A stretch of 64,000 bases of DNA, from the NCBI RefSeq assembly GCF_015277855.1, contig NZ_CP063812.1, forward strand, positions 3,038,001 through 3,102,000. Reading direction: 5' to 3'. The notes beneath the pieces were generated by a model. That model was not told where the DNA came from. It did no database searches and saw only the letters and a program-made list of their open reading frames with translations. Source of the DNA: Microbacterium cremeum. GTDB taxonomy: Bacteria > Actinomycetota > Actinomycetes > Actinomycetales > Microbacteriaceae. Position 1 is the stretch's first letter. Every line of letters begins with the position of its first letter. Shown here piece after piece: positions 45,182 through 56,880 of the stretch. The translations under genes were made by a program, and so were the position numbers.

Positions 45182-45511
45182 CTATTCCTCGAACACCGCG
45201 TTGCCGCGGCAGGCCATGCCCGGGTTGACTCCCACGTCGACCCCGGCACTCACGAACATCCCGTAGCTCTGGATGCCGCGGTATCCGTGCTTCTGGTTGC
45301 CCCGCATCGCGAGGGCGTCGTCGTCGAAGCCCGGCGGGTTGCCCTCGATGGCGTCCGCCGTGTCCTGCCCCGAGAACGCGCACGCCGACTTGGCGTGTGC
45401 CGCCCCCTGGGCCTCTCCTCCGTTTCCGTTGACCTCGCCCGCCATCGCGGCGCCGCCGCCGCCGAGCACGAGCGCGACGGCGACCGCCGCGCACGCCAGT
45501 GTCTTCCTCAT
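45182..45511 (-). CDS. Small secreted protein
   Basis: A 109-residue exported protein from ATG at 45509-45511, with GGGAGG upstream. The signal sequence is clear (MRKTLACAAVAVALVLGGGG, cleaved after AAMA). The mature part of about 83 residues has two cysteines (KSACAFSGQDTADAIEG and GMACRGNAVFEE) that could pair, and a GNQKHGYRGIQSYGMFVSAG segment. I do not know the family. It is transcribed divergently from the STAND-CHAT-caspase cluster and lies upstream of the rpoB promoter on the same strand. Its place next to the cluster could be coincidental. Confidence 0.75.
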   Translation of the reverse strand: MRKTLACAAVAVALVLGGGGAAMAGEVNGNGGEAQGAAHAKSACAFSGQDTADAIEGNPPGFDDDALAMRGNQKHGYRGIQSYGMFVSAGVDVGVNPGMACRGNAVFEE

Positions 45512-45692
45512 CGCGTATCCCTCCCCAGAGATGACGCCCGGCGCGGCCCCCATCAGGTCGGGCACGCGGCGACCACTGCGGCGCCGCCGCGCGGCACGAT
45601 ACTCCTGCGCACCCGGCGGCGAAAGGGGCCCGCGGCGGATTTCCTCCGGTCGGCCATGGCGCAACCGCACCGTGCGGGTCCATGATGTGCAC

Positions 45693-48317
45693 ATGACCGG
45701 GGAGGGACACCCCGTCATCCGCACGCCAGATCAGCGGATCCGGGTGTTCGTGAGCTCGACACTGCGCGAGCTCGCAGAAGAACGGCAGGCCGTGCGCCGC
45801 GCCGTCGAGCGACTGCGCCTGGCGCCCGTGATGTTCGAGCTGGGGGCGCGGCCCCACCCTCCGCGTGACCTGTACCGCTCGTACCTGGCGCAGAGCGACG
45901 TGTTCGTCGGCATCTACGGGGCCAGCTACGGCTGGGTCGCGCCCGACGAGGAGGTATCGGGTCTCGAGGACGAGTACAACCTCGCACCCCGCGCGATGCC
46001 GAAGCTCATCTACGTCAAGGAGACGGTCGCGCGGGACGAGCGCCTCTCCGAGCTGATCGCACGCATCCAGGCCGATGACACCGCCGCGTACCTGCACTTC
46101 ACGACGCCCGACGAGCTCGAGGACCGGGTCGCGGGGGATCTCGCCACGCTGCTCGCCGAGCGCTTCGATCAGTCCACTGCCCGCGGCGACGCCCCGGAAC
46201 GCGCAGAGCCGGGGCCCGGGGCGCGCATCCCGGCTCCGTACACGGCGACGATCGGCCGCGAGGGCGAGCTCGCGGAGCTCCGCGCGCTGCTGGCCGGCGG
46301 GCAGCACCGGGTGGTGAGCCTCATCGGCCCGGGCGGCATCGGCAAGAGCAGGCTGGCGATCGAGGCGGCGCACGCGAACGCGGATCTGTTCCCCGACGGG
46401 ACGTTCTTCGTGCCGCTGGAGGGCGTCCTCGAAGCGGGGCTCCTGCTGCCCACGATCGCCTACGTGCTGGGCGTCCGCGACACCGGCGCCGGCGGCACCC
46501 TCGAGGACCGCCTGGCCCAGTCCCTGGGCGACCGCCGCGTCCTCATCGTGCTCGACAACTTCGAACAGCTGGTCGAGGAGGCGCCGCTGCTGGTGCGCCT
46601 CTACTCCCTCGCACCGCGCGCGTGCTTCCTGGTCACGAGCCGAGCCGTCCTGCGCATCCGCGGCGAGCGCGTGTTCGAAGTGGAGGCGCTCGAGACGCCC
46701 GCGCCGGGGTCCGCCGCGACGCTCGCGCAGGCCGAGGGATCCGCGGCGTGCCTGCTCTTCGCCGAACGCGCGGCCGCCGCCCAGCCGGGCTTCAAGCTGA
46801 ACGCGGCGAACGCGGGGGCGGTCGTCGAGATCTGCCGGCGCCTGGACGGCCTGCCCCTCGCGATCGAGCTGGCGGCGGCGAGGATCCGGCTGCTGTCGCC
46901 ACAGGACGTGGCGGCCCGACTCGAGCGTTCGCTCGCGTTCCTGTCCACACCGGTGCGGGATCTGCCCGAACGGCACCGGACGATGCGGGCCACGATCGAC
47001 TGGAGCGTCGGGCTGCTGTCCGACGTGCAACGCAGCATGCTCGAGGATCTCGGGGTGTTCGCGGCCCGGTTCACCCTCGAGGCCGTGGAGTCGGTCGGCG
47101 CGACGCGACCGTGGGGCGACGAGGCGATCGAGACCCTCGCCGGGCTGATCGACGCCTCGCTCGTGCAGCGCGTCGACGCGGACGGGCGGTCGGTGTTCTC
47201 GCTTCTGTCGATCGTGCGCGAGCACGCCCTCGGAGTCCTCGAGCGCCGGGGCGACGCGGATGCGATGAAGCGGGCGCACGCCGACCACTACCTCGCGCTG
47301 GTCCACGCGACGGCGCCCCGTCTGCGCGGCGCCGGGCAGGTCGACGCGGTGATCGAGCTCGGCCTCGAGGTGCCGAATCTCCGCGCGGCCGCCAGGCACC
47401 TCGTGCAGACGGGCCGCCTGGACGACGCCGGCGACTTCGCGTGGACGCTGGTGGTCTACTGGTGGATCTCGGGCTACTTCGCAGAGGTCCGCCTCTGGAT
47501 GCTGGAACTCCTCGCCGCGCAGCGGCCGGTCTCCGATCGCACCCGGGCCGTGGCGCTGTTCTTCACCCTGTGGGCCGAGATGTGGCAGCGTCCGAGCGCC
47601 CAGGTCGTGTCGGGGCTCGGCGAGGCGATGCGGCTGTTCGCGCGGGACGGCGACGAGCACGCCGCCGCGATGGCGCTCGCCGCTCAGGCGTCGACGAGGC
47701 TGCAGTTTCCCGATCTCGACCCTGCGACGGCGCGGGCCGAGCTCGAGGACGCGGTGGCGAGGCTCCGCGCTCTGGGCGACCGCTGGGCGGAGTCGCTCGC
47801 CGAGGTGGCGCTCGGCCAGCTGGCGGTGGTGTGCAGCGACATCCCCGGGGCGAGCGCGCACTTCGACCGTGCGGTCGAGATCGCCGAGTCCGCGCAGGAC
47901 GCGTTCACCCGCGTGGTCGCGGGGAACAATCGCGCACGCCTCCGCTTCCTGCTGGGCGATCGCGACGCGTCCGAGCCGGAGTTCCTCCTCACACTGCGGC
48001 TCTCGACGCAGCTGCACTTCGTCGACGGCGCGACCTACGGGATCGAGGGCGCGTGCGCCTTGGCTGCGGCACGCGGGGACGCCTGGAAGGCCGGCGCCCT
48101 GGCGGCCGCCGCGGCGACGCTGCGAGAGACGACCGGCGTGTACGACATCGCAGGCCTCGCCATCCATCTCGAGCCGCTCGCCGCGCTGCGCAGATCCGAT
48201 CCGGCCGCTGTCGCCGCGGGTGAGCGCGCCGGCCGCGAGCTGAGCCTCGCCGAGGCGATCGAACTGGCGATGCCGGATGCCGATGCCGACCTGCGCCGGG
48301 CGGTCGCGGCCTGGTGA
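45693..48317 (+). CDS. DUF4062-NB-ARC-type STAND ATPase with TPR-like repeats
   Basis: An 874-residue predicted sensor and switch. Residues 8-150 are DUF4062 (RIRVFVSSTLRELAEERQAV), a TIR-related fold. A P-loop ATPase of NB-ARC/STAND type follows: Walker A GPGGIGKSRLA near residue 211, Walker B RRVLIVLDNFEQL near 283, VTSRAVLRIRGE, and the GLPLAIELAAARIRLLS motif near 390. A winged-helix segment (FAARFTLEAVESVG) and about 330 residues of TPR-like helices make up the rest. It lacks a LuxR or SARP DNA-binding domain, which sets it apart from look-alike transcription factors. The start is ATG at 45693 without a strong ribosome site. It is followed by CHAT and caspase genes on the same strand (gaps 140 and 36 bases). 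Role inferred: NTP-dependent oligomerising sensor of a conflict or cell-death system. Confidence 0.88.
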   Translation: MTGEGHPVIRTPDQRIRVFVSSTLRELAEERQAVRRAVERLRLAPVMFELGARPHPPRDLYRSYLAQSDVFVGIYGASYGWVAPDEEVSGLEDEYNLAPRAMPKLIYVKETVARDERLSELIARIQADDTAAYLHFTTPDELEDRVAGDLATLLAERFDQSTARGDAPERAEPGPGARIPAPYTATIGREGELAELRALLAGGQHRVVSLIGPGGIGKSRLAIEAAHANADLFPDGTFFVPLEGVLEAGLLLPTIAYVLGVRDTGAGGTLEDRLAQSLGDRRVLIVLDNFEQLVEEAPLLVRLYSLAPRACFLVTSRAVLRIRGERVFEVEALETPAPGSAATLAQAEGSAACLLFAERAAAAQPGFKLNAANAGAVVEICRRLDGLPLAIELAAARIRLLSPQDVAARLERSLAFLSTPVRDLPERHRTMRATIDWSVGLLSDVQRSMLEDLGVFAARFTLEAVESVGATRPWGDEAIETLAGLIDASLVQRVDADGRSVFSLLSIVREHALGVLERRGDADAMKRAHADHYLALVHATAPRLRGAGQVDAVIELGLEVPNLRAAARHLVQTGRLDDAGDFAWTLVVYWWISGYFAEVRLWMLELLAAQRPVSDRTRAVALFFTLWAEMWQRPSAQVVSGLGEAMRLFARDGDEHAAAMALAAQASTRLQFPDLDPATARAELEDAVARLRALGDRWAESLAEVALGQLAVVCSDIPGASAHFDRAVEIAESAQDAFTRVVAGNNRARLRFLLGDRDASEPEFLLTLRLSTQLHFVDGATYGIEGACALAAARGDAWKAGALAAAAATLRETTGVYDIAGLAIHLEPLAALRRSDPAAVAAGERAGRELSLAEAIELAMPDADADLRRAVAAW

Positions 48318-48457
48318 CGGCCCTCGTCGGAGCAGGCGGTATCAGCGTCGCCGGGCGAACGCTCTGTGACGGAGAGGGCGTGCCGGGTGCATCGCGCCGG
48401 GCAGCGCTCCCCCGGAGCTCCTGCCGAGCCTGCGGGGCGGATTGACGAGGGATCGGG

Positions 48458-50503
48458 ATGGATCGCGTTCCGGACGTGCCGCGCGGCACCGTCGAGATCG
48501 ACGGCGCCGGGATCGACGCGCGGATCGACATCCCGCCGGCCGGAACGGTCGACGCCGGGGGCATCGCACTGCTGGCGGACGCGGTCATCGAGTCCGAGCG
48601 GGGCGGAGTGGCCGCGATCCGGGTCCGTGGCGCCGAAGGCGGGCACGTCGCCGTGATCGTGAGCCGCGAGCGCGGCGCGGAGCTCGTCCGCCTGAGTGGA
48701 GACGGCACGGACCGCATCGCCCATGTTCGACTCGCCGCCGGCGAGCGCGTCCACGTGTCGGTGGTCGTGAGCGGATCGTGGGCCGGGATCGAATGGCTCG
48801 CGCGCCAGGTCTCACGGGGCGGCATGGGCGCCGGCGGCGCGGAGGCGAGCGCGGACGACGGGATGCCGGAGACCGCACCGCCGCCTCCCCCGCCCGCGGC
48901 GGAGATCGACCTCGGCGGCGCGGAGGCCGCGCCGGACGGTGCCGCGGCGGAGGAGGAATCGCCGAGGACCGCCGCGCACGTCGACGCCGAGATGCCGGCC
49001 CGTGCCGCACCCGGGCAGGAGGTCGCCGTGCGCGTGCGGCTGTCGCGGGATCCGCTCGCCCCCACCCCCGGCGCTTCCCACGACGACGCGGTGATCGCGA
49101 TCGACGCCGCACGGCCTGTCACCGTCACGGTGATGCCCCGCGGTCTGCGGTTCGCGCGCCGGGTGCGCGCCACCCGCACGCTCCGTCTTCCCGATGCCGG
49201 GCGGTCGCCGGCGATGGCGGTCTTCCGCCTGACGGCGCTGGACACCGGGATGGTCGAGGTGTCGGTCATCGTGCGGCAGGAGCCGATCGAACTGCCGCTG
49301 GCCACGCTGCGGCTCACCGCGGAGGTCGCGGCGGCCCGGGAGCCGGACGCCGAGCCCCCGGCCCGGACGGCGCGTGCCGCCGTGGCGGGACGCCCCGCCG
49401 AACTCGCGGGGCTCCCCACGATCCGCGTGGACGAGTCGATCGCCGGCGGGCGCTCGACGCTGCGGGTGGCGGCGACGATCGGCGGGGAACGCGCGGAGCA
49501 TCGCGCCGACCTCGGCGACAAGGCGCGCTTCGTCGACCTCCTGTACCGCGACCTGCGCGGCATCCGTGAGCATCTCGACGGCTTCCGCGACGACGCGGAA
49601 CGGGCGAAGGCCGCCGAGGGGAAGCTCGCCGATGTCGGCGGACGGCTGGCGCGGCGGATCCTCGGACCCGACGTGCGCGCCCTCCTGGGCCGCCACCGCG
49701 GGGAACTGGACGGCCTCATCGTGCAGACCTCGGCCGAGGTCGACCTGCCGTGGGAGATCGTGTGCATCGCCCCGCCCGGCGCCGCGTCGCCCGCCCTGTT
49801 CCTGGGCGACGCCGGTCTGGTGCGGTTCGTGTACGACACCGCCCATCCGCAGCGCATCACGGTCTCGCCCGACCGGGTGCTCACCGTCTCACCCGCGTAC
49901 GTCGACCAGAGGCTGCGGCTCGAACGCACCGCCGAGGAGGTCGCGGAGCTGCGCGCGCGCTTCACCGGGATCACGCCCGCACCCGAGGACCGCGGGCAGC
50001 TGAGCGCGAGCATCGCGGCCGGGTTCGACCTGCTGCACTTCGCCGGACACGGCCGGTGGCGTCCCGACGACCCGGCCTGCCAGGAACTCGTGCTGGCGTC
50101 GTTCTCGGAGCCGGTGGCGCCCGACGGCTCCAGCTACGCCGAGACCGACGCCCGCCGCGACCTGCCCGACCGCGGGATCGTCGAGCCCGAGACGCCCGGC
50201 CCGTTCGTGTTCCTCAGCGCCTGCGACGTCGGCCGGCTCCAGTCCGGGGCCGCCGGCCTCGGCGGGTTCGCCGAGGCGTTCCTGCGGGGCGGGGCGGCCG
50301 CGTTCGTCGGCTGCGGCTGGGCGGTGCGCGACGACGTCGCGTCGCGCTTCGTCACCACGCTCTACCGCGCGCTCCTCGACGACGGCCTGCCGCTCGCGCA
50401 GGCGACGCGGCTCGCTCGTGCGGCCTGCCGCGACGCCGGGGATCTCAGCGCCTACGCCTTCGCCGTGTTCGCCGATCCGCGCGCACGGATCAGCACGCCG
50501 TGA
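48458..50503 (+). CDS. CHAT-domain cysteine protease
   Basis: A 681-residue protein with a C-terminal CHAT (clan CD) protease. Catalytic His531 lies in LLHFAGHGRW and Cys589 in FLSACDVGRLQSG, both intact, with the usual GGFAEAFLRGGAAAFVGCGW following. Residues 1-330 are a beta-rich region that I cannot assign to a family, interrupted by an acidic Pro/Ala linker (about 130-170); they may recruit an upstream switch or a substrate. The ATG at 48458 has GAGGGAT upstream. It stands between the STAND ATPase and the hydrolase-caspase gene. CHAT proteases cleave partner proteins on activation in other bacterial systems, e.g. with type III-E CRISPR. Here the likely activator is the STAND protein and a substrate could be the next gene product. 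Confidence 0.9.
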   Translation: MDRVPDVPRGTVEIDGAGIDARIDIPPAGTVDAGGIALLADAVIESERGGVAAIRVRGAEGGHVAVIVSRERGAELVRLSGDGTDRIAHVRLAAGERVHVSVVVSGSWAGIEWLARQVSRGGMGAGGAEASADDGMPETAPPPPPPAAEIDLGGAEAAPDGAAAEEESPRTAAHVDAEMPARAAPGQEVAVRVRLSRDPLAPTPGASHDDAVIAIDAARPVTVTVMPRGLRFARRVRATRTLRLPDAGRSPAMAVFRLTALDTGMVEVSVIVRQEPIELPLATLRLTAEVAAAREPDAEPPARTARAAVAGRPAELAGLPTIRVDESIAGGRSTLRVAATIGGERAEHRADLGDKARFVDLLYRDLRGIREHLDGFRDDAERAKAAEGKLADVGGRLARRILGPDVRALLGRHRGELDGLIVQTSAEVDLPWEIVCIAPPGAASPALFLGDAGLVRFVYDTAHPQRITVSPDRVLTVSPAYVDQRLRLERTAEEVAELRARFTGITPAPEDRGQLSASIAAGFDLLHFAGHGRWRPDDPACQELVLASFSEPVAPDGSSYAETDARRDLPDRGIVEPETPGPFVFLSACDVGRLQSGAAGLGGFAEAFLRGGAAAFVGCGWAVRDDVASRFVTTLYRALLDDGLPLAQATRLARAACRDAGDLSAYAFAVFADPRARISTP

Positions 50504-50539
50504 CCGACCGAGACCAGCACACGACCGACGGGAGCCGAC

Positions 50540-52726
50540 ATGCCCTCCACCACACGCACGCGCGCCGAGGCGCCAGAGACGAGCCCGGATGCCGCGGGCA
50601 CCGGAGCATCGCGCGGCGGGCTCACGCCCGCACAGCTGGCGGCGCTGCGCCCGCACGTCGTCGCCACCGAGGACGGCGAGCTGGCGAAGACCTCGACGGC
50701 GCGCCCGAAGACCGTGGCCGAGTTCGCCACGACGGCAGCCGACATCCGCCGCATCTTCTCCAAGGACCTGCCCGCATTCCTCGCGGCGCACCCCGAGGCG
50801 CCCGTGCCGATCGTGATCTACGCGCACGGCGGACTCGTCGACAAGGCGGCGGGGCTTGCGACCGCCCACGCGCAGGTCGACTGGTGGAAGGAGAACGGCG
50901 CCTTTCCGATCCACATGGTGTGGGAGAGCGGACTGTTCACCGCGCTCGCGGATGTGATCATGCGCCGCCGGCCCGGCAAGCGCGGTTTCGCCGACTACAC
51001 CGACGGCGTCATCGAGGCCGCCGCGCGACTGCTCGGCGGCACGCAGGTGTGGGGCGACATGAAGCTCGACGCCGCGGCCGGGTCGATGGACGGCGGCGGA
51101 GCGAGCGTGCTCGCCGACGAGCTCGCGAAGTTCGTCGCGGCGCACCGCGACGACGTGACGGTGCACGCCGTCGGGCACAGCGCCGGATCCATCTTCCACG
51201 CCCACTTCGTGCCCCGCGCGCTCGCGGCGGGGGTGCCGAGGTTCGACTCCGTCTCGCTGCTCGCGCCGGCGGTGCGGGTCGACACCTTCGAGCAGACGCT
51301 GCTCCAGGCCGCCGAGGACGACCGTATCGGCGAGCTGTCGGTGTTCACGATGACCGACGCCAAGGAGCGCGACGACAACTGCTTCACGCTCTACCGCAAG
51401 TCTCTGCTCTACCTCGTGTCGCGGGCGTTCGAGCCGGAACGGGATGCCGCGATCCTCGGCATGGAGAAGTACCTGCGCGGCAGCCGCCGCAGCGTCGAGT
51501 ACCTCAGCGCCCACGCCGATCGCCTCGTGCTGAGCCCGGTCGCCGGCCCCGCTCGGCGCAGCAGCAGCGCGACCAGCCACGGCGGGTTCGACAACGACCC
51601 TCCGACGATGACCGCCGTCGCGCTGCGGGTGACCGGCGGCGACACGGTCACGCCCTTCCCGGCCCGCCCGCGCGAGGTCGAGATGCCTCCTCTCCCGGTG
51701 GACACCGGCGGCGGCTCACGGGGAACGGCACCGGCCAAGCGCGCACTGTGCATCGGCGTCAACGCCTACGAGGAGCTGGGCGACGTGCTGCACGGCTGCG
51801 TCGCCGACGCCACCGCGTGGTCGCAGGCGCTCGGCGCGGCGGGCTTCAGCACGGACGTGATGCTCGACGCGGAGGCCACGCGCACCGGCATCCTCAGCGC
51901 CATGCTCGACATCGTCGCCGAGGCGAAGGCCGGAGACGTCGTCGCGATCCAGTACGCGGGGCACGGCACGTACGTGCCCGATCTCGACGGCGACGAGGAC
52001 GACGCGGCCGGGCCGACCGACGAGGCCCTGTGCCCGGTGGACTTCCGCCAGGGCCGGCTCATCATCGACGACGACCTCGCCCAGATCTGGGACCTCATCC
52101 CCGAGGGCGTCGCCGTCACGCTGCTGTTCGACAGTTGCCACTCCGGGACCGCCAACCGAGGCGGCCGTCCCGACCCTGCTCCGCCCGCGCCGACCGCACG
52201 GGCGCGCCTGGTCCGGCCCGACAAGGAGCTCGAGCGGGACTACGCCCGCAGCCGCGGCGTGCCCACCGGCGACGAGCGCCGGGAACGGGCCCGCGACGTC
52301 GTGATCGCGGCGGAGCCCGCCCGCAGCCGCAACACCACGCACAACCGCCCGACCGCGGTCCGCCGCGAGGTGCTCATCAGCGCGTGCCTTCCCAACGAGG
52401 TCGCCATGGAGCGCGACGGCCAGGGGGTGTTCACCGCCGCGGCCCTCCAGGTGCTCGCGCGCGGCGAGTCGCTCACCAACCGCGGCTTCGTCGACGCCGT
52501 GATCGCACAGCTCGGCGTGCGCACGCAGACTCCGCAGCTGACCGCCGACGACGTGCTGGCGGCGCGGCCCCTGCTCGCGTCCGCGATCGACGCCGTGACG
52601 ATCGCGGCGCCCGCAGCCGCGGTTGCCGGGGCACGTGATCGGGACGGAGAGGGCAAGCGCACCGCGGCGATCGTCGCGATCCTGCGTGCGACGGCCGATC
52701 TGCTCGAGGACGACGGCGTGGGCTGA
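50540..52726 (+). CDS. Alpha/beta-hydrolase fused to a caspase-family protease
   Basis: A 728-residue bifunctional protein. The N-terminal half is a lipase-like alpha/beta hydrolase: oxyanion motif YAHGGLVDK near residues 94-102 and nucleophile elbow GHSAG with Ser214. Residues 400-660 are a C14 caspase-like domain: ALCIGVNAYEELG, His475 in YAGHGTY and Cys533 in LLFDSCHSGT, both catalytic residues intact. A disordered linker (about 350-395) separates the two. The C-terminal stretch (LRATADLLEDDGVG) is helical. ATG at 50540 is 36 bases after the CHAT stop. Fusion of a membrane-attacking-type hydrolase with a caspase suggests a self-processed or protease-released effector. No transmembrane segment or signal peptide is present, so it is cytoplasmic. 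Confidence 0.9.
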   Translation: MPSTTRTRAEAPETSPDAAGTGASRGGLTPAQLAALRPHVVATEDGELAKTSTARPKTVAEFATTAADIRRIFSKDLPAFLAAHPEAPVPIVIYAHGGLVDKAAGLATAHAQVDWWKENGAFPIHMVWESGLFTALADVIMRRRPGKRGFADYTDGVIEAAARLLGGTQVWGDMKLDAAAGSMDGGGASVLADELAKFVAAHRDDVTVHAVGHSAGSIFHAHFVPRALAAGVPRFDSVSLLAPAVRVDTFEQTLLQAAEDDRIGELSVFTMTDAKERDDNCFTLYRKSLLYLVSRAFEPERDAAILGMEKYLRGSRRSVEYLSAHADRLVLSPVAGPARRSSSATSHGGFDNDPPTMTAVALRVTGGDTVTPFPARPREVEMPPLPVDTGGGSRGTAPAKRALCIGVNAYEELGDVLHGCVADATAWSQALGAAGFSTDVMLDAEATRTGILSAMLDIVAEAKAGDVVAIQYAGHGTYVPDLDGDEDDAAGPTDEALCPVDFRQGRLIIDDDLAQIWDLIPEGVAVTLLFDSCHSGTANRGGRPDPAPPAPTARARLVRPDKELERDYARSRGVPTGDERRERARDVVIAAEPARSRNTTHNRPTAVRREVLISACLPNEVAMERDGQGVFTAAALQVLARGESLTNRGFVDAVIAQLGVRTQTPQLTADDVLAARPLLASAIDAVTIAAPAAAVAGARDRDGEGKRTAAIVAILRATADLLEDDGVG

Positions 52727-52822: not shown

Positions 52823-54019
52823 TCAGCGCCCGCTGCGCCGCAGCCGGGCGGTCGTCATCGCGAGCGCACCGGCCAGAGCGAGCACGGCGGCTCCGGCGAG
52901 GGGCCCGGCGACGTCGGCGCCGGTCGCGGCGAGAGCGCGCGCGGTGGCCGCTGCCGGCGCGGCATCCGCGCCGTCGGGGTCGTCCGTCGTCGCGGTCTCG
53001 TCGTCCGAGGGAGTGACGGGCTCGGTCGGCATCGTGGGACCCGCCTCGAACGGGTCGATCGGGTCCGTCGGGTCCGTCGGGTCCGTCGGGTCCGTCGGGT
53101 CCGTCGGGTCCGTCGGGTCCGTCGGGTCCGTCGGGTCCGTCGGGTCCGTCGGGTCCGTCGGGTCCGTGGGGTCCGTCGGGTCCGTCGGGTCCGTCGGGTC
53201 CGTCGGGTCCGTCGGGTCCGTGGGCTCGACCGGGTCGGTCGGGTCCGTCGGGTCGCCGACGGGAACGATGTCGACGGTGAGGAGGCTCGTGACCGAGCCG
53301 GTGCCGTCCGACACGCGCACGGTGAGAGCGCGCGTGCCGACGAAGTCGACCGGCGGGATGTAGCGGATCCCGGTCGGGTCCGAGTGCCACTTCTCGCCCG
53401 GAAGCGCGGGCGACACCCCGCCCAGCACCGACACCGTCAACGCATCGCCCTCGGCGTCGAAGTCGTTCGCGGTGAGATCGGCGTGCACGAGGGTCAGCTG
53501 CGTGTTGACCGGCGTCGAGGCGACGTCGTCCGCGGCGACCGGCAGCGTGTTGACGGGCTCGGCCGGGGGCGGGCCGACCACGATCGTCACCGTCGCCCGT
53601 TCGGCGCTCTGGATCGTCCAGTCCCAGCGGTCCATCGCGACGTATGTGAAGGAGGCGACGCCCGAGAACCCGGGGTGCGGTGCGAAGTCGAACGTGCAGA
53701 GCTGGCCGTTCGCGCCCACGATGGCGCCTCCGACGATGTCCTGCACGAACCCGGCACCGATGGGATCGCCCTCGGCGTCGGTGTCGTTGGCGCACGGCGA
53801 CAGCGTCACCTCGGTCTGGTACGGGATCTCGAAGTAGTCGTCGACGGCGACGGGCGGCGTGTTCGCCGCGACGGGCTCGTCGTCGGCGCGGGCCGGCAAT
53901 CCGACCGCGAGCGCCGAGGCCGTGACGGCGCCGGCAGCGGCGACGAGGGCGCCGATGCGGATCGCGTCCGGCAGAGCGAACCGGCCGGGTCTGCGCGGTG
54001 TCGTGGGGGCGAGGTTCAT
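52823..54019 (-). CDS. LAXTG-anchored surface protein with a Pro-Thr-Asp stalk
   Basis: A 398-residue wall protein from ATG at 54017-54019 (MNLAPTTPRRPGRF), with AAGGA upstream; an ATG at 54034 would add five residues. A signal sequence ends near GLPARADDE. Two Ig-like/cadherin-like tandem domains follow (AVDDYFEIPYQTEVTLSPCA and AADDVASTPVNTQLTLVHA starts), then a stalk of about 60 residues made of Asp-Pro-Thr repeats, and a C-terminal LAATGAD signal with helix and RLRRSGR tail. The stalk is encoded by 18 near-identical 9-bp units and would hold the domains clear of the wall. The promoter region is shared with the divergent LuxR regulator. Confidence 0.85.
   Translation of the reverse strand: MNLAPTTPRRPGRFALPDAIRIGALVAAAGAVTASALAVGLPARADDEPVAANTPPVAVDDYFEIPYQTEVTLSPCANDTDAEGDPIGAGFVQDIVGGAIVGANGQLCTFDFAPHPGFSGVASFTYVAMDRWDWTIQSAERATVTIVVGPPPAEPVNTLPVAADDVASTPVNTQLTLVHADLTANDFDAEGDALTVSVLGGVSPALPGEKWHSDPTGIRYIPPVDFVGTRALTVRVSDGTGSVTSLLTVDIVPVGDPTDPTDPVEPTDPTDPTDPTDPTDPTDPTDPTDPTDPTDPTDPTDPTDPTDPTDPTDPTDPTDPIDPFEAGPTMPTEPVTPSDDETATTDDPDGADAAPAAATARALAATGADVAGPLAGAAVLALAGALAMTTARLRRSGR
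53061..53222 (-). repeat. Eighteen 9-bp units encoding the Asp-Pro-Thr stalk
   Basis: The plus strand repeats GGGTCCGTC for 162 bases with one variant near 53167. Because the unit is a multiple of three, gain or loss of units keeps the frame and changes stalk length only. Confidence 0.9.
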
Positions 54020-54259: not shown

Positions 54260-56880
54260 ATGGTCGGGGAAGCCACCGAGCAGGCGTTCGCGCCCTGGCC
54301 GCTGACCGGTCGCGACACCGTGGTGTCGCGGGCCACGACGGGTCTGCGGGGCCGCGTCCGCACGATCCTCATGTGGGGAGCGTCCGGCGTCGGCAAGAGC
54401 CGCACCGTCGAGTCGGTGGGCGACGCGCTCGCGGCCGAGGGCTGGACCGTGCTGCGCGCCTCCGCCACCGCGATCATGTCGCACGTGCCGCTGGGCGCAC
54501 TCCTCCCGCTCTTCCCGACGGGCAGGGCGCAGCTGACCGACACCTCGATCGACCCCGGCGCGCTGCTGGATCGCGCCATCGACGCGCTCGAGACGCGCGG
54601 CCCCGCGCCCCGCCTCCTCGTGATCGACGACCTCGGACTCCTCGACCCGCTGTCGGCGACGCTGGTCGCCCAGCTCGTCGCCGTCGACGCGCTGCGGCTC
54701 GTCGCGACGATCCGGTCGGGCGATCCGCTGCCCGATCCGTTCGTGTCGACCTGGAGCCCCGACCGCTCGCTGCGGGTCGAGCTGTCACCGCTCGACGTCG
54801 ACACGATCGGCGACCTGCTGACCGCCGTGCTCGGCGGCCCCGTCGCGCATCGCACGACGAGCGATCTGCACCGCGAGAGCGGCGGCAACCCGCTCTACCT
54901 GCGCGAGCTGGTGGTCGGCGCGCTCGAGTCGGGCAGGCTGGCCGAGGAAGCCGGCGTGTGGCACCTCACCGGCGCGCCCGTGGGGTCGTCGGCGCTGCGC
55001 GACCTCATCCTCGCCCGCGTCGCCCAGCTCGACGCCGACGAGCGCGACGTCGTCGACCGGCTCGCCGTGTGCGGCGAGCTGCGCGCCGCGCATCTGACCG
55101 CGCCGGGCGCCCGGGCGGCGCTGGCGCGGCTCGAGAACGCGGGCCTGGTGCACATCGGCGACCGGCTCGACGTGCGCCTGTCGCATCCGCAGTACGTCGC
55201 GGTCGTGGCATCCGCGGTCCCGCGTCTGCGCGCCGCCGACCTGCTGCTCGAGCAGTCCGCCCTCCTCGACGGCGACGGCGCGACCGCCGCCGACGCGCTG
55301 CGCGCGGTGACGTGGCGGCTCGCGGCGGGGGCGGATGCCGACCCTGAGATCCTCGCGAGCTCTGCGCGGCTGGCACGGCAGGCCGGCGACCACCGCACCG
55401 TCGAGCGGCTGACGGCGGCAGCCCTCGCCGCGGGCGGCCCGCGTCCCGACCTGCTGCTGCTGCGCGGGGAGGCCCTGCTGCGCATGGGCCGCGTCGCCGA
55501 GTCGCTCGACGTGCTGCGGTCGGCCGACGCGCTGGCCCCCGAGGGAGAGCTCGCGACGGCGATCGCCGCGACCACCGCGATGGCGCACGTCAGCGTGCAC
55601 GAAGGGCTCGCCGATGCGCTCGAGGTGCTGCGCCGCGCCGACGCGGGAGAGCATCCCGACCCGTCGCTCGACTTCATGCGCGCGCTCGTCGAGCTGTACT
55701 CGAACAACGCCGCCGAAGCGGACCGCATCGTCTCGGCGCTCGCGGGCGGCTTCGGCGACTCGCCGGCCGAGCAGGCGATCATCGCCGCGGCGCGCGCGCA
55801 GCCGCTCGCCGCCCTCGGCGCACCGACGAGGCGATCGCCGCCGCCCGGACCGCCCTCGAGTTCGCGCGGGCGACCGAGGGTGCGGCGATCCCGGGGCACA
55901 CGGTCGCGAACGCGCTCCACACCCTCGCGACGGTGCTGCTGCACGCGGGGCGCGTCGACGAGGCCCGCGGGGCGGCCACCGAAGCCCTCGTCGAGGCGAT
56001 CGACGCCGACGACGAGATCGTGTCGCGCTCCATCGAGTTCCTGCTGGCGCGGATCGCCGCCGACGCGGGGCGCCTCGAGACCAGCGCCCGGTGGTGTCGC
56101 GACACGATGAGCGGGGCCATGACCGCCGGACCGATCAGCCTCTACATCCCAGCGCTGGCGAGCCTCGTCATCGTGCTGGTCGCGCACGGCGACCTCGACG
56201 AGGGCCGCGCGCTGCTCGCGACGGTGCCGGCGGAGGTCGACACCGGCCCGGGCGGCGTCGTCGCCCGCGCCTGGATCGCCGCCGCCGAGGGCGACACCGC
56301 GACGGCCCGGCGCCTGCTGCTGAGCGAGGCCGAGGCCATGACCGCATCCGGCCACGTGTTCCTCGCGGGCACGTTCCTGCTGCACCTCGCCCGCCTGGGC
56401 GGGGCGGATGCCGCAGCCGCACCCCTGGCGCGGCTCGCGGCCGCGCATCCCGGCGAGCTGCTCGCCTGCCAGGCGGCCCACGTGGCGGCCGAGGCCGCGG
56501 GCGACCGCGCCGGGCTCGAGGCCGTCGGAGACCAGTGGTCGCGCTCCGGCGCGCACCTGCTGGCCGCCGAGGCCTTCGCCTCGGCCGCGCGCGTCGCGCG
56601 CGCGGACGGCGAGCAGCGCGTCGCCGTGGCACTGCAGGCGCGCAGCGACGAGGAGGCCGCGCGCTGCGAAGGCGCCGCGACGCCGCTCCTCAAGTTCACC
56701 GAGGAGCTCACCCCGCTCACCCGGCGCGAGCGCGAGATCGCCGCCTTGGCCGCCGAGGGGGCGAGCTCGAAGCAGATCGCCTCGAAGCTGTTCCTCTCGA
56801 CGCGGACCGTCGACAACCACCTGCAGTCCGTGTACGGCAAGCTCGGCATCAGCGGGCGGCACGAGCTCGCTCGGCTCTGA
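54260..56880 (+). CDS. LuxR-family STAND (LAL-type) regulator with an apparent frameshift
   Basis: A large ATP-dependent regulator of about 873 residues if repaired. ATG at 54260 follows GAGGAGG. The N-terminal AAA/STAND part has Walker A MWGASGVGKSRTVE near residue 40 and Walker B RLLVIDDLGLLD near 120. Helical TPR-like repeats follow. The C terminus is a LuxR HTH (LTPLTRREREIAALAAEGAS, then SKQIASKLFLSTRTVDNHLQ). The frame breaks at about 55817-55822: the first part reads AQPLAALG and then turns arginine-rich, while the other frame continues as TDEAIAAARTALEFARAT. Inserting one base there restores a continuous TPR repeat, so a single-base deletion, real or in the assembly, is the simplest reading. 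It lies divergent to the LAXTG gene and probably controls it. Confidence 0.8.

Follow-up and report, generated by a model that had tools for sequence, protein, structure and literature searches.

A cascade leading from a SAVED-CHAT protein to the caspase PCaspase was reportedly described by Steens in 2024. Protease-activated effectors are also described in Avs, Hachiman and canu, as far as the accessible portion of the source goes (PMC12799240), and the amidase-lipase-metacaspase combination has been termed a destructive weapon, at least in the part of the paper available to us (Asplund-Samuelsson 2012, PMC3501461). DUF4062 was reported in May 2026 as a TIR-like NADase family whose antiphage members are named Swarozyc, according to the part of the preprint at hand (PMC13174449). 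Here we analyse three neighbouring genes of Microbacterium cremeum, called A, B and C, which encode a DUF4062-NB-ARC-TPR protein, a CHAT protease, and a fusion of an alpha/beta-hydrolase-like domain with a caspase. Taken as a whole, they are best explained if B and C form a protease-gated hydrolase cassette and A is a separate NLR-like receptor, a reading that we hold at slightly less than even confidence.

The genes lie in the window (the whole 64-kb stretch of DNA that was analysed), within a genome made up of a single contig of 3,982,951 bases. As the first-pass annotation of the sequence had said, they are three co-oriented open reading frames (ORFs), all open, at A 45693-48317, B 48458-50503 and C 50540-52726; they come after a divergent rpoB gene. 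The features referred to below are these (aa, amino acids; pLDDT, predicted local distance difference test):

45693..48317, + strand: gene A, DUF4062 - NB-ARC (STAND) - TPR-like, 874 aa; 27 homologue rows compared
45741..45986, + strand: DUF4062 (TIR-like NADase) domain of A, residues 17-98; Pfam E 2.3e-21, KpSwz PDB sequence match E 0.0047
45966..45968, + strand: Glu92 of A, aligned with the conserved DUF4062 Glu in the KpSwz alignment and homologue rows
46287..46646, + strand: NB-ARC match of A, residues 199-318; Pfam 22.3 bits, cut-off 23.5, Walker stretches conserved
48458..50503, + strand: gene B, two strand-rich N-terminal domains and a CHAT protease, 681 aa; from Pfam, structure model and fold search
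48986..49315, + strand: DUF7363 beta-sandwich of B, residues 177-286; Pfam E 1e-28
49634..50434, + strand: CHAT domain of B, residues 393-659; His531 at 50048-50050, Cys589 at 50222-50224
50540..52726, + strand: gene C, alpha/beta-hydrolase-like domain fused to a metacaspase-like domain, 728 aa
50621..51664, + strand: hydrolase domain of C, residues 28-375; Ser214 at 51179-51181, His347 at 51578-51580
51656..51733, + strand: hydrolase-caspase linker of C, residues 373-398; mostly low pLDDT, Arg378 conserved in close homologues
51737..52546, + strand: caspase domain of C, residues 400-669; His475 at 51962-51964, Cys533 at 52136-52138
52646..52708, + strand: C-terminal helix of C, residues 703-723; conserved in close homologues, less so over the wide set

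The annotation had treated the three genes as one module; a search for the same gene order does not bear out a conserved three-gene system. B is present in six of 118 genomes (that of M. cremeum included), and C follows it in 6/6. There are 16 loci in the genus with a close A beside rpoB; in five of them B and C lie between this A and pxp genes, and in the other 11 they do not. B-C is moreover found without an adjoining A at nine loci. In one genome (G032) the pair stands elsewhere and A has no match, and none of eight named B-C loci outside the genus has an adjoining A. Four of these eight genomes have no match to A at E≤1e-20, and only in two (G118 and G123) do the matches extend over the DUF4062 part. 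On gene order within the genus, a fixed three-gene operon is rejected. The spacing of the genes is also uneven, with gaps in the window of 140 base pairs (bp) between A and B and 36 bp between B and C, and of 125-202 bp versus 18-67 bp over the five rpoB loci with all three genes. A scan for promoters and terminators gave no signal between A and B or between B and C, GC-rich DNA making such a scan weakly informative.

For comparison, rpoB was found in 50 other genomes of the genus, and its surroundings were taken from 40 of them (two of the 40 stretches are short); tblastn detected no B or C there (0/40). In 20 of these loci pxpBC lies at most 3.6 kb from rpoB and the intervening DNA has no intact A; one of the 20 (genome G013) retains a decayed remnant of A there, at approximately L134:301-625. 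For 5/16 against 0/40 Fisher's p is 0.001, and when only the 20 loci with pxpBC are taken for comparison it is 0.012, both uncorrected for kinship. On the rpoB tree, where two of 13 inner branches are well supported, the loci with B/C are scattered; four changes are needed, and 235 of 500 shuffles gave a number as low. The C genes of eight distinct A-B-C loci (in one of which, L042, A is cut by the contig end) form one clade, with a Shimodaira-Hasegawa-like approximate likelihood ratio of 100 in a quick tree of C made without bootstrap. By this pattern the cassette probably entered once and was lost repeatedly. The A paralogues that adjoin B differ: over NB-ARC, the copies next to B in L021-L024 are only 62-66% identical to the A of the window, and copies elsewhere 77-80%.

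The protease half of the pair, B, has Pfam matches to DUF7363 (residues 177-286, E 1e-28) and CHAT (393-659, E 2.5e-20). A fold search supports the CHAT protease fold, and the CHAT profile and the His/Cys dyad are both present. The dyad is intact, as had been noted from the sequence: His531 is found in 18/19 homologue rows (one gap) and Cys589 in 17/19 (one Phe, one gap), while in one additional homologue (P0025) the catalytic Cys is replaced by Ser. In the structure model the N-terminal half, previously left unassigned, contains two strand-rich domains (11-105 and 170-290), of which the second is Pfam DUF7363. The Pfam scan of B gave DUF7363, CHAT and C25 only, with neither a SAVED domain nor a TPR match. 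A literature search on DUF7363, DUF7362 and DUF7379 found no paper. The same genome encodes a second CHAT protein (L001, an ORF of 708 aa at G000:C1:3165204-3165884), which B does not match at E≤1e-10.

C consists of a hydrolase-like domain followed by a caspase (Pfam, 400-669, E 1.2e-23). The features of a metacaspase (C14) that were looked for are present, namely the caspase fold, the His/Cys dyad and acidic S1 residues, and the enzyme is probably Arg/Lys-specific. The catalytic residues that the annotation had named are conserved: among 74 homologues, Ser214 is found in 74/74, His475 in 73/74 and Cys533 in 74/74. His347 is likewise found in 74/74. The hydrolase of the window protein has no Pfam match; it is assigned because of a GHSAGS elbow, an HGG motif, the invariant His347 and weak DUF900 matches in relatives. 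A sequence search of the PDB found no relative of it (best E 0.42), and caspases took up the results of the fold search with C, leaving the hydrolase part barely covered. Between the domains, Arg378 is conserved in at least 90% of 44 close-homologue rows and in 23/74 over the wide set. The C-terminal helix is a possible docking element. Among the PADLOC models, C is matched by a generic caspase model only and A and B by none, so that a known PADLOC defence system is rejected.

It is worth asking how far the hydrolase-caspase extends beyond this genus. Genome contigs were searched with a profile of the C alignment, which gave at least 494 confirmed out of 590 stretches, and the best 79 loci were kept. 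One of these (L102) gave no C ORF, leaving 78 for the counts: 68 full loci with hydrolase and caspase, and ten with the hydrolase only. Genes were called on the fetched loci with a simple ORF caller, which may be wrong for small genes and starts; two loci (L110 and L113) are near contig ends. The C tree has 73 rows (L057, from the same genome as L021, was left out) and eleven phyla in the sample: Actinomycetota, Pseudomonadota, Verrucomicrobiota, Acidobacteriota, Planctomycetota, Bacteroidota, Gemmatimonadota, Thermodesulfobacteriota, Chlorobiota, Thermomicrobiota and Armatimonadota.

Most of the full loci encode a second protease. In 43/68 an HExxH metalloprotease of 537-728 residues lies within three genes of the hydrolase-caspase, with the motif in 43/43. 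It is mostly directly 3' of the hydrolase-caspase gene, the 43 loci falling among L048-L114 (for example L063:9284-14002). No profile was above cut-off for the four partner metalloproteases scanned with Pfam and the three scanned with NCBIfam, Peptidase_M4 being closest. The B profile matches in 15/68 full loci: 12 of the B type (three of them fused to C), a CHAT-CHASE2 protein three genes away (L071), an LCAT-like protein with CHAT (L082), and a DUF7363 protein without CHAT (L051, counted as having none). A CHAT protein is thus present in 14/68 full loci, and both CHAT and metalloprotease in 0/68. A second protease is near the hydrolase-caspase in 57/68 full loci and near the hydrolase-only gene in 0/10, and on this ground we argue that the caspase is either the target of the second protease or works together with it. 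On the C tree there are two changes between partner types; the starred branches force at least two, with 13 ungrouped rows left out. The metalloprotease loci of Cryobacterium and Arthrobacter nest among actinobacterial CHAT loci. The slot for the second protease is thus apparently exchangeable between CHAT and HExxH metalloprotease.

Nine Cryobacterium loci (L048, L049, L052-L056, L058 and L099) add a small caspase gene of about 274-285 aa, and all but L053 have the metalloprotease. A further protein (P0144), a CHAT-hydrolase-caspase fusion on a short metagenome contig, retains an internal Met where its parts join, and no conclusion was based on it. A literature search, covering titles and the openings of abstracts and, for larger result lists, their top entries, found no B-C or hydrolase-caspase-metalloprotease pair.

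The pair also occurs in a setting other than that of Microbacterium. In Agromyces cavernae (L045, 4149-14269), three genes come before a single ORF of 1,927 residues. The first encodes an alpha/beta hydrolase (30 bits to Abhydrolase_6, where the cut-off is 26.3), another joins a caspase to VMAP-C (41.1 bits for VMAP-C against a cut-off of 27), and an AAA gene resembles MoxR weakly (24.6 bits, under the cut-off of 27). The long ORF opens with a SAV_2336 N-terminal domain (345.6 bits, cut-off 200), then hydrolase-caspase, then DUF7363-CHAT. We take SAV_2336 to be the vWA component of the VMAP-MoxR-vWA systems (the name does not occur in the text of the paper describing them). The gene order is that given for these systems in the part of the paper at hand (Kaur 2020, PMC7159879). 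VMAP-C, MoxR and vWA genes were seen together at L045 only, its MoxR matches being near cut-off or under it. In the window, Pfam matches neither VMAP-C nor MoxR to A, B, C or six genes that flank them (no SAV_2336 search of the flanking genes was made). A search of the M. cremeum genome for VMAP-C was empty, and its control was likewise silent.

On the basis of these loci, we propose tentatively that the hydrolase-caspase is the core of an unrecognised, widespread effector cassette, in which an exchangeable second protease would license the hydrolase under different sensor platforms; this may well be wrong, and we rate it as possible rather than probable. The platforms would be DUF4062-NB-ARC receptors in Microbacterium and VMAP-MoxR-vWA in Agromyces, and the slot would be filled by CHAT in some actinobacteria and by a thermolysin-like HExxH protease elsewhere.

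A appears to carry an effector of its own. Its DUF4062 (residues 17-98, E 2.3e-21) scores 76.2 bits against a cut-off of 24.7. The Walker A and B stretches are conserved across homologues, with the NB-ARC profile itself just under its curated cut-off (22.3 versus 23.5 bits). KpSwz, matched by sequence in the PDB, aligns with A over residues 13-99 only (E 0.0047). Glu92 is Glu in 27/29 homologue rows and a gap in the other two, and by our own reading of the alignment it is the likely counterpart of KpSwz Glu97. Because DUF4062 is reported as a TIR-like NADase and this Glu is kept, A has a predicted effector of its own and need not activate CHAT. Mean identity over 27 long rows falls from DUF4062 (72%) to NB-ARC (64%) to the C-terminal part (54%), a pattern that would suit a kept effector and a changing sensor, so that A looks like a complete NLR-like unit.

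A is a duplicating resident of the rpoB-pxp locus, with arrays of two or three copies in 7/16 loci; three copies are seen in L026 and in L032, where the middle copy is in two frames. Agromyces ramosus (G118) has ten matches to A. The M. cremeum genome has a second A-like gene (L040:8796-12244, at about 2.98 Mb of G000:C1), which is split over two overlapping frames and adjoins a hydrophobic protein of some 295 residues. The same partner accompanies the A-like gene of L037-L039, there a single ORF. This partner (c18), that of a second clade of A, is hydrophobic by eye, and the one scanned has no Pfam match.

Other explanations have to be set against a B-C cassette with a separate A. The annotation had proposed a linear pathway, in which the STAND protein A senses, oligomerises and activates B, which then activates C. 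The A-B-C order of the eight loci, with their C genes in one clade, fits this, as does the occurrence of B/C at rpoB only with A (5/16 versus 0/40), and operons of caspases with AP-ATPases are described in the available part of Kaur 2021 (PMC8195603). However, A is without B/C in 11/16 loci, B-C is without adjoining A at nine, different A paralogues adjoin B, A has its own predicted NADase effector, and A is spaced more widely from B than B is from C. The pathway is therefore unlikely as a whole. Its second step, from CHAT to caspase or by self-cleavage, is plausible for a conserved pair; A is not supported as a fixed member, and the three-protein pathway is partly supported at best. At the other extreme, A and B-C may be functionally unrelated, B-C having arrived a single time next to a resident array of duplicating A genes and been lost many times. 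The scatter on the rpoB tree and the way in which A multiplies and decays independently are consistent with this, but no B/C occurs at rpoB without A in 40 loci, a comparison whose p-value is soft through kinship. We consider it unlikely, and regard a link between A and B-C inside Microbacterium as possible.

The function of the pair might also be a different one. C and its partner protease could be a lytic or digestive set, used for self-lysis, antagonism or predation rather than antiphage defence. Of 12 relatives scanned, six carry an N-terminal Amidase_2 (L063, L066, L082, L090, L107 and L108) and four a papain domain (L116-L119, with GH19 in addition in L117), the papain ones being without caspase; the description of amidase-lipase-metacaspase as a destructive weapon, in the text available, points the same way (Asplund-Samuelsson 2012, PMC3501461). 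The C of the window has no such added domain, and related domains occur in the VMAP-MoxR-like conflict locus, which makes this set improbable in our view. Much less likely still is that A is an AfsR-like transcription regulator and the remainder ordinary proteolysis. The NB-ARC-TPR part does resemble the AfsR and HaaT models, and an HTH-AAA-TPR protein (L064) matches the core of A, but the scores of 45-47 bits are far under the cut-offs (1430 and 1125 bits) and the N-terminus is DUF4062, not helix-turn-helix (HTH) or SARP. A regulatory role for A was rejected on these scores.

Several observations count against the favoured reading of a B-C cassette with a separate receptor. The association of B/C with A at rpoB speaks against A as a bystander, and leaves a link within the genus possible. 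In ten of the 68 full loci there is no second protease within three genes, and one more (L051) has only the CHAT-less DUF7363 protein; L070, with a short metalloprotease-like gene four genes away, was counted as having none. The alignment of L045 has Gln at the position of the caspase His and Phe at that of the CHAT Cys, so the domains there may have become structural. Arg378 is too little conserved over the wide set to be a universal cleavage site, and was rejected as such. The scanned flanking genes are mainly metabolic or transport genes. When 120 neighbours (at least 120 aa) of nine B-C loci were compared with PADLOC at E≤1e-5, eight models were matched, the commonest by three members, in a comparison made with no control. 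C was matched on plasmids in 3/72,556 at E≤1e-30, with only the hydrolase part matching in two of the three, and on phages in 1/50,697 at E≤1e-10; spread by plasmids or phages was rejected, there being nearly none at these limits.

With these points in mind, the B-C cassette could work as follows, most likely with B licensing C. C would resemble a zymogen in which a lipase-like hydrolase is fused to a metacaspase, and the strand-rich half of B would be a docking or sensing part. On a trigger, B would cleave C or open it allosterically, or the metacaspase would cut its own linker. Precedents for such a step are the SAVED-CHAT to PCaspase cascade and the effectors activated by proteases in Avs, Hachiman and canu. 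The freed hydrolase and caspase would damage the cell and so stop a phage or other invader, with the hydrolase as the killing end; the order of cleavage and the substrate of the hydrolase are what we infer here. A would act separately as an NLR-like receptor, its NB-ARC oligomerising and its DUF4062 probably destroying NAD+. Where A and B-C share a locus in the Microbacterium lineage they may be layered, through parallel NAD+ loss or a second input, without A being an obligatory activator of CHAT. B-C looks like a cell-death switch that is portable between sensors, with a putative role in defence.

The pair of B and C, with the exchangeable slot for a second protease that lies behind it, is a more interesting result than a three-protein pathway. 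If the proposal is true, bacteria keep a lipase-like killer under a protease lock with two keys, and protease clans unrelated to each other supply the second. It would be a bacterial parallel to initiator and executioner proteases, and would offer a clean test of interchangeable effector cassettes shared by immune systems. It would also mark DUF4062-NB-ARC arrays in actinobacteria as likely NLR-like NADases.

Three other genes of the window may be mentioned. A small protein adjoining rpoB (45182-45565, - strand) is conserved in five clustered loci and also matched in four loci without A; it has no family match. At 52823-54019 (- strand) there is a Big_9/cadherin-like protein with a long DPT repeat, and at 54260-56110 (+ strand) an AAA_16 protein whose C-terminal end gives the impression of out-of-frame sequence.

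How the locus compares with known systems can now be stated. It shares with the SAVED-CHAT to PCaspase cascade the placing of CHAT upstream of a caspase, and differs in that no SAVED part was found in B and the caspase is fused to a hydrolase. Craspase (gRAMP/TPR-CHAT) has the CHAT protease fold in common with B, in which no TPR repeats were found. The DUF4062 with its conserved Glu links A to KpSwz (Swarozyc), which, in the part of the preprint at hand, has an HTH/winged portal-binding auxiliary domain where A has NB-ARC and a TPR-like C-terminus (PMC13174449). Human TEP1-type proteins, in the same text, likewise join DUF4062 to a STAND ATPase. The relatives of C with N-terminal Amidase_2 resemble Amidase_2-metacaspases, whose description in the available text is without the hydrolase domain and partner protease of the present system (PMC3501461). 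VMAP-MoxR-vWA systems, as far as their description is to hand, use caspase and alpha/beta-hydrolase effectors, which L045 has fused to a SAV_2336-type protein (PMC7159879); A, B, C and the six flanking genes scanned with Pfam differ in having no VMAP-C/MoxR match. The likeness to canu caspase-nuclease loci and trypsin-MBL pairs is that a protease accompanies a proenzyme effector and is reused by unrelated systems, so far as the accessible portion of the source goes (PMC12799240). Here, however, the effector hydrolase shares a chain with the caspase, and a second protease, CHAT or metalloprotease, stands beside it.
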